DNA of 15,762 nt from a bacterium. Lineage in GTDB: Bacteria > Joyebacterota > Joyebacteria > Joyebacterales > Joyebacteraceae. The notes beneath the pieces were generated by a model, which saw only the letters and a program-made list of their open reading frames with translations, did not search any database and was not told the DNA's origin. The stretch spans positions 1 through 15,762 of the forward strand of contig JALGZK010000030.1 of NCBI GenBank assembly GCA_025774935.1. The letters run 5' to 3'. Shown in pieces: positions 2,694-3,932 of the stretch (position 1 is its first letter; each line of letters starts with the position of its first letter). Both the position numbers and the translations under genes were made by a program.

Positions 2694-3230
2694 GTGCCAA
2701 TGACGAGGAAGAAGAAGGAAGACAGGGTCGCAGAGCTTGCCAAGCAGCTCGAGGGCAAGGGCGTCGTCATCCTGAGCGACTTCACGGGGATGAACGTCGA
2801 GACCGCAACGGAGATCCGCAAGCGGTTCCGCGAGTCGGCGGTCAGCTACCTGGTCGTCAAGAACACTCTCGCGTCGAGGGCGGCGGAGAGTGTGGGGCTC
2901 GGGGAGCTCGTCGAGGACCTCGACGGGCCGAACGCGTTCGCGATGACGGAAGACGACCCGGTCGCGCCGGCCAAGATCCTGGTCGAGTTCGAGAAGAAGC
3001 ACAACACCCCGCAGATCACGAAGGGGTGGATCGAGTCGACCGTCATGACGGCGGCGGAGATTCGTAGGATCGCCGACCTGCCGACGAGAGAAGTGCTCCT
3101 GGCCCAGATTGCGGCCGGGTTCCAGGCTCCCGTCGCGGGGCTCGCGAGACTCCTGAACGAGCTCTCGAGGAAGCTCGTCGCGACCCTGGACGCGGTGGCG
3201 AAGTCGAAGGGGGCGGAGACGGGAGCGTAG
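2694..3230 (+). CDS. rplJ: 50S ribosomal protein uL10
   Basis: uL10 anchors L12 dimers to 23S rRNA at the base of the stalk. The product has 178 residues. The N-terminal rRNA-binding domain is seen in KEDRVAELAKQLEGKGVVIL, SDFTGMNV and the SYLVVKNTLASRA segment. The C-terminal helix that carries L12 dimers is about 130-175 (LAQIAAGFQAPVAGLARLLN followed by ELSRKLVATLDAV). The GTG start is chosen by ribosome-binding-site spacing; an ATG at 2700 would remove two residues. In E. coli an L10-L12 complex binds a long leader upstream of rplJ. Here only 12 bases separate rplA and rplJ, so no such leader exists at that position. Confidence 0.96.
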   Translation: MPMTRKKKEDRVAELAKQLEGKGVVILSDFTGMNVETATEIRKRFRESAVSYLVVKNTLASRAAESVGLGELVEDLDGPNAFAMTEDDPVAPAKILVEFEKKHNTPQITKGWIESTVMTAAEIRRIADLPTREVLLAQIAAGFQAPVAGLARLLNELSRKLVATLDAVAKSKGAETGA

Positions 3231-3386
3231 GCGGCGGCCCGAGATCTTCCCTCTCGCGGGCGCGCCGGGGGAGCGGTGAACGAACCCGGTGCATGTCTGG
3301 GCCCGACGGGAGAGCGAGGAGGGGCGGCGGAGCCTCAGGTTCGAACGGAGAGAATCCCAGAAGAGAAGAACACCCGGAGGAACACG

Positions 3387-3932
3387 ATGGCAGAGGAGAA
3401 GAAGGACGCGATCGAGACGGCCGAGGAGCCTGCCGCCGAGGAGGCGACGGAAGCCAAGCAGGAAGACGCGAAGGACGAGCCGAAAGACGAGCCCAAGGAA
3501 GAGCCGAAGGAAGAGCCGAAGGAAGAGCCAAAGGAAGAGAAGAAGGTCAAGATGAGCAAGAACGTCGAGAAGATCATTGAGGCCATCGAGAAGATGACGG
3601 TTCTCGAGATGGCCGACCTCGTGAAGGCGCTCGAGGACAAGTTCGGCGTGACGGCCGCCGCTCCGGTCGCGATGGCCGCGATGCCCGCCGCCGGCGGAGC
3701 CGCCGAGGCTGCCGAGGAGAAGACGGAGTTCGACGTCGTTCTCGCCGAGACGGGTGAGAAGAAGTTCCAGGTCGTGAAGGTCATCCGCCAGGTCACCGAC
3801 CTGGGTCTGAAGGAGGCCAAGGACCTCGTCGACAACCCCGGTCAGGTCGTGAAGAAGGAAGTCTCGAAGGACGAGGCCGAAGAGGTCAAGAAGAAGCTGG
3901 AAGAGGCCGGCGCGAAGGTCGAGCTGAAGTAG
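3387..3932 (+). CDS. rplL: 50S ribosomal protein bL12 (L7/L12) with repeat-rich N-terminal extension
   Basis: bL12 is the multicopy stalk protein that recruits and activates the translational GTPases. The product has 181 residues against the usual 120-130. Residues 1-55 are an added charged tail containing six DEPK/EEPK-type repeats (30-53). Residues 56-88 (from [15 protein letters not shown]) are the normal dimerising N-terminal domain, 89-112 the Ala/Pro/Gly hinge, and 113-181 the factor-binding C-terminal domain ([20 protein letters not shown]). The ATG at 3387 has a strong GGAGG six bases upstream (3376-3380). The in-frame ATG at 3552 would give a normal 126-residue L12 and has AGAAGG (3541-3546) five bases upstream, so a second, shorter product is possible. 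The 156 bases before it contain only a weak stem (3237-3261). Confidence 0.95.
3474..3545 (+). repeat. Six tandem 12-bp units encoding [DE]E[PK]K in the L12 extension
   Basis: Six consecutive in-frame 12-base units run from 3474 to 3545, each close to GAAGAGCCGAAG. They encode [20 protein letters not shown] and EEKK. Units 3 and 4 are identical in DNA, and the others differ at one to a few positions, so this looks like recent slippage expansion. The array keeps frame and joins directly to the canonical L12 start five to seven bases later. Confidence 0.95.

Follow-up and report, generated by a model that had tools for sequence, protein, structure and literature searches.

The window, by which we mean the whole 15,762-nucleotide stretch of DNA analysed here, carries the genes rplK, rplA, rplJ, rplL, rpoB, rpoC, rpsL, rpsG and fusA. 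A tRNA gene (positions 455-529, + strand) lies upstream of a secE-like ORF at 568. The stalk scaffold uL10 is encoded by rplJ (2694-3230, + strand; NF000955 and phmmer), whose product of 178 aa includes a long C-terminal helix region. The rplJ-rplL intergenic region (3231-3386, 156 bp) gave no Rfam match. The rplL gene is present as a single copy in the genome, in the gene order rplJ-rplL-rpoB. Its frame opens with an ATG at 3387 and closes with a stop codon at 3930-3932, giving a product of 181 aa. A GGAGG Shine-Dalgarno (SD) sequence (3376-3380, + strand) precedes this ATG with a spacer of 6 nt, and an equivalent site is present in relatives.

The window gene encodes a bL12 with 55 additional N-terminal residues

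The rplL product was compared with family models of bL12. The L7/L12 profile TIGR00855 (125 positions) matched residues 56-181 over its positions 1-125 with a score of 151.2 bits against a cut-off of 84.4, and Pfam recognised the dimerisation domain (PF16320, 69.2 bits) and the C-terminal domain (PF00542, 93.2 bits). The full-length profile match together with both Pfam domains indicates that residues 1-55 are an addition ahead of a normal L12, whose dimerisation domain, hinge and C-terminal domain are encoded, with the stop codon, at 3552-3932 (+ strand). A Pfam search of the tail revealed no domain. The usual bL12 has 120-130 aa and begins at the dimerisation domain, a layout from which the window protein departs by its 55 extra residues. 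Since a start at that domain is a usual trait and no criterion of the family models, membership stands: the protein is a bL12 by every family model, and the tail makes it a variant.

The extension (55 codons, 3387-3551, + strand) is an open frame with its own start and SD, and contains 12 Lys, 19 Glu, 4 Asp and no Arg. It is made up of a 29-residue Ala/Glu/Lys-rich segment, six tetrapeptide units and a final VK. The segment comprises a conserved tip (codons 1-13, 3387-3425, + strand), aligned in 17 genomes, and a variable Ala/Glu/Lys-rich spacer (residues 14-29, 3426-3473, + strand), for which no alignment is possible across genera. The six units, of the form [DE]E[PK]K (residues 30-53, 3474-3545, + strand), are encoded by a 12-bp tandem array detected by TRF. 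The sequence-only reading had proposed a 55-residue extension before an intact L12, formed by an Ala/Glu-rich segment and then six [DE]E[PK]K repeats; its coordinates were right, TIGR00855 beginning exactly at residue 56, and the repeat units were confirmed.

The extension is translated and fixed in the phylum

Our sample of the phylum comprised 20 genomes from one family and eight genera and yielded 17 rplL genes, the window's included, with an intact 5' part. In all 17 a start codon preceded by a GGAGG-type site lies 5' of the canonical position, and the tails measure 55, 39, 34, 32, 30, 29, 27, 27, 27, 26, 22, 22, 22, 22, 22, 20 and 16 residues. At the canonical position, 14 of them have no start codon, the residue there being Ala, Pro or Leu (ASKN, PSKN, LSK...), and their next in-frame Met falls within the dimerisation helices. 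In these genes, therefore, the tail cannot be skipped and must be translated, which also rules out a start aligned to 3552 as a general rule. An ATG at the canonical position was observed only in the window gene, its congener L004 and L014. Every one of the 16 relatives whose gene start is intact keeps the start, the SD and the tip of the extension, and no relative lacking the extension and starting at the equivalent of 3552 was found among the 17 phylum genes with a readable start. A translated tail is a fixed trait of the window's phylum, in agreement with the earlier expectation that an open frame behind such a strong SD is translated. In the window gene, ATG 3552 is preceded by a weak AAGG (3543-3546), so that a short isoform is possible in this gene and in one congener, unlike in most relatives.

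Tails on all r-proteins of the genome were ruled out by reading the proteins of the S10, spc and alpha clusters, where the only obvious r-protein tails are those of L17 (acidic C-terminus) and S3 (Gly/Arg C-terminus). RpoA of the window's genome, like L17, has a long acidic C-terminal tail. The loci concerned, for the tails of L17, RpoA and S3 together, are L160 (G000:C31, minus strand) and L158 (G000:C6).

The tip of the extension is under purifying selection

In the alignment of all members the tip reads M-A-(E/D)-E-(K/T)-(K/N)-(D/E)-A-V-E-T-(A/T)-E, with E4 and T11 invariant and V/I9 and E/D10 almost invariant across the 17 genomes. We estimated dN/dS from changes counted by parsimony on a tree of the 17 genes. 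For tip codons 2-13 the ratio was 0.23 (26.5 synonymous and 22.5 non-synonymous changes; p about 2e-7 against neutrality, with changes treated as independent), compared to 0.24 for the dimerisation domain and 0.14-0.15 for the hinge and C-terminal domain. The tip and the dimerisation domain are under purifying selection of equal strength. Codons 8-13, which lie past the initiation region, gave a dN/dS of 0.24 at high synonymous divergence (pS 0.61), which indicates that selection acts on the peptide and not on the mRNA only. Synonymous change was lower in codons 2-7 (pS 0.41), where GCA occupies codon 2 in 12 of the 17 genes; this makes some extra constraint on the mRNA start likely, and a need for efficient initiation may help to preserve these codons. 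With 12 codons and few hydrophobic residues, the tip offers a weak foundation for a binding role.

The repeat array varies within the genus and linker composition is constrained

TRF scored the 12-bp unit at 111 (6.7 copies, 86% match), and no other tandem array in the window came close. The EEPK-coding DNA pattern was found nowhere else in the genome outside rplL, and this confinement rules out a genome-wide habit of EEPK repeats. Within the genus, the window gene has six units, its congener L004 two (DEPK EEKK) and L003 none. Judged by this sequence comparison, the array is the youngest, variable part of the tail. The possibility raised earlier, that the extension is a neutral slippage product, fits the array alone: the extension as a whole has a tip that is conserved and under selection. 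We rejected recent neutral slippage as a full account, since variation of this kind is confined to the array. Among relatives, then, the extension is conserved and the number of repeats is variable.

The linker that follows the tip varies freely in sequence and length, but its composition is constrained (Lys, Glu, Asp, Ala, Pro). Arg is absent from the tail of every phylum member, and hydrophobic residues are nearly absent except Val. The in-frame sequence immediately upstream of the start is Arg/Gly-rich, unlike the tails, which have Lys without Arg. The charges of the window tail are more evenly mixed than those of 97% of shuffles.

Tails of similar composition occur in other lineages

A wider sample of 389 genomes, in 383 of which L12 was found, was then compared. 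Outside the phylum, most L12s among the matches listed (a listing that favours similar L12s) have frames that total about 120-150 residues, too short to include a long tail. SD-led tails rich in Lys and Glu (K/E tails) were present in all four matching genomes from the phylum of G107 (51-63 residues, e.g. MVEKKEGKKEPEIKEAPKEEKK...) and in all six matching ones from the order of G195 (21-28 residues, e.g. MAENKAEAAVKEEKKATKTKAKKEKEVS). Tails in the phylum of G083 range from 10 to about 130 residues; L163, L166, L168 and L169 of this phylum have core-length tails of roughly 90 to 130 residues, rich in K/E/V repeats. Two related MAGs, L032 and L046, have tails of 48 and 72 residues. Position and composition (K about equal to E, almost no Arg) are common to the tails across lineages, and sequence is not. 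Arg-poor K/E tails of L12, unrelated to that of the window and 21 to about 130 residues long, are shared within each of at least three other lineages. The sequence-only reading had foreseen neither these parallels nor the spread of the extension across the phylum. When charge mixing was compared with shuffles, most long tails were more even (the window's own tail at 3%, the G107 phylum at 0.1% or less); the G083 tail, with its blocky charges, is an exception, and good mixing is thus not universal.

The tails of the G107, G083 and G195 lineages and of L032 and L046 resemble the window's in position, composition and proneness to disorder, but differ from those of its phylum in sequence and in length (10 to about 130 residues), and their origins were probably separate. 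We placed the lineages on a tree of 71 rows built from uL10 and the N-terminal part of RpoB, with the tails left out. This tree implies at least seven changes in the trait "tail of 15 or more"; its many weak branches make the number of tail origins uncertain, and parsimony cannot tell gain from loss on it. The window's phylum forms a long branch that clusters with Fibrobacter, KSB1, Bacteroidetes and Ignavibacteria rows.

Long open frames upstream of L12 in L030, L134, L135 and L137 were rejected as GC-rich chance frames, the SD-bearing start of these genes being canonical. In L136 (G288) a single 399-codon frame spans L10 and L12, and L029 (G046) has a frame of 321 codons. Both have an rplJ without a stop codon that runs into rplL, and may be in-frame L10-L12 fusion ORFs or assembly errors. 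An SD and a start codon (GTG or ATG) lie just before L12, so that a fusion and a free L12 are both possible.

The tail is probably disordered and probably present in six copies

We modelled the window protein with AlphaFold2 on an alignment with 25 relatives. Residues 1-50 were predicted with a pLDDT of about 46-52 and no secondary structure, a low value that is weak evidence for disorder since the alignment is nearly devoid of tail relatives. Beyond the tail the model shows a helical hairpin (58-68, 72-86), a disordered hinge and a folded C-terminal domain, with pLDDT above 90 in most blocks of the latter. The composition of the tail points the same way, and it is probably intrinsically disordered, much as the sequence-only reading had supposed in describing a flexible polyampholyte.

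The number of L12 dimers bound per uL10, three in Thermus and two in E. coli, is determined by how long the C-terminal part of uL10 is (PMC4592705). In phmmer searches, the window uL10 aligned with nearly full-length uL10 of Thermotoga and Thermus, and the E. coli and Bacillus proteins aligned with it only to about residue 153. As the window uL10 is of the long, Thermus-like type, each ribosome probably carries three L12 dimers and hence six tails, which fits the earlier view that the tail is present in several copies per ribosome.

Possible role of the tail

We give roughly even chances to the reading that the tail is a disordered polyampholyte spacer, presenting the conserved tip near uL10 for a weak contact that aids the stalk. 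About six tails, from three L12 dimers on the long uL10 helix, would make up a charged fringe next to the dimers, flexible and non-sticky. Being Arg-free and charge-mixed, the linker would stay expanded and avoid rRNA, and could keep the 13-residue tip close to uL10/uL11 or to an arriving factor. A weak contact made there by the tip would favour assembly or stability of the stalk. The EEPK array would have arisen recently, through repeat slippage that lengthened the linker, and would be tolerated since the length of the linker is of little importance. A precedent for contact by an N-terminal tail is the human bL12m extension, which contacts uL10m (PMC7438116).

The tail may instead be a generic solubilising bristle without a specific partner, its tip kept only as the mRNA start and N-terminus of a highly expressed gene, a possibility that we consider real though on balance unlikely. 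L12 is the most abundant r-protein and is partly free of the ribosome, and a charge-mixed K/E chain would keep it in solution and away from RNA. A bristle would be consistent with the lack of predicted structure, with the reduced synonymous change in codons 2-7 and with the recurrence of Arg-poor K/E tails of 16 to about 130 residues, without a common sequence, in unrelated lineages. Against it, codons 8-13 are constrained at the peptide level as tightly as the dimerisation domain, and most bacteria have a soluble L12 that lacks any such tail. Conservation of the tip in the phylum favours a contact and recurrence of composition without sequence favours a bristle; we place a tip tethered for contact somewhat ahead.

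The other explanations are far less probable. Neutral drift, in which the phylum ancestor gained an upstream start a single time and the tail has persisted without a role while slippage changed its length, would suit the freely varying linker and the expansion of the array within the genus. It is improbable given the dN/dS of the tip, the high charge and Lys without Arg of every tail despite the Arg/Gly-rich upstream sequence, and parallel tails common to whole clades. Slightly less probable again is a role at the mRNA level, by which A/G-rich early codons and a strong ribosome-binding site boost initiation, so that more L12 than L10 is made. The output of rplL must exceed that of rplJ, and the strong SD at the new start and the low synonymous divergence of codons 2-7 would agree with such a role; but 16-55 codons are not needed for it, codons 8-13 are constrained in amino acids and not synonymously, and most bacteria achieve the excess of L12 with a start at the canonical position. 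That the extension is an artefact, the true start being ATG 3552 or the repeat being misassembled, is scarcely credible: this ATG does align with the canonical start behind its weak AAGG, but most relatives have no start codon there, the extension is present in all independent assemblies, and the array is short with units that differ at synonymous sites.

Alongside the spacer with a tethered tip, we put forward a broader proposal, held tentatively at something short of even chances. K/E polyampholyte tails of bL12 could be a recurrent, selected stalk accessory gained several times, a multicopy charged fringe that would tune factor traffic or assembly, here by means of the 13-residue tip.

Comparison with known systems

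bL12 recruits and activates translational GTPases and counts as one of the ribosomal proteins that vary least. That one phylum has a fixed tail, with parallels elsewhere, means that stalk architecture varies in uncultured bacteria, unlike in model organisms, and start-site callers may trim such tails. The window protein shares its core (residues 56-181), gene order and single copy with canonical bacterial bL12 (TIGR00855, PF16320, PF00542); alignments with bL12 families and solved bacterial chains begin at the canonical start, ahead of which the window protein has 55 further residues. Compared to the E. coli-type L7 (N-acetylated L12), its N-terminus is shifted by 55 residues. In our search of the open-access literature, bL12 extensions turned up only for mitochondria, and no paper on such tails in bacteria was found. 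Though unreported in the literature found, bacterial bL12 tails may be visible, unremarked, in databases.

The archaeal/eukaryotic P-stalk proteins (aL12, P1/P2) likewise combine a K/E-rich flexible segment, a multicopy protein and a conserved short motif at the terminus. Their segment and factor-binding motif are C-terminal, the motif is hydrophobic and the fold is unrelated to that of the window protein. Human bL12m has an N-terminal extension, of which 16 residues were traced in the mitoribosome, with contacts to uL10m and mL53 (PMC7438116). phmmer aligned only the L12 core of the window protein with the chains 6gaw_CL and 6vlz_TA, and no similarity to the bL12m extension was found. The mitochondrial extension, which like the window tail lies N-terminal to the dimerisation domain and serves as a model of what a tail there can do, docks through Leu-13 (PMC7438116), whereas the window tail is K/E-rich with few hydrophobic residues.
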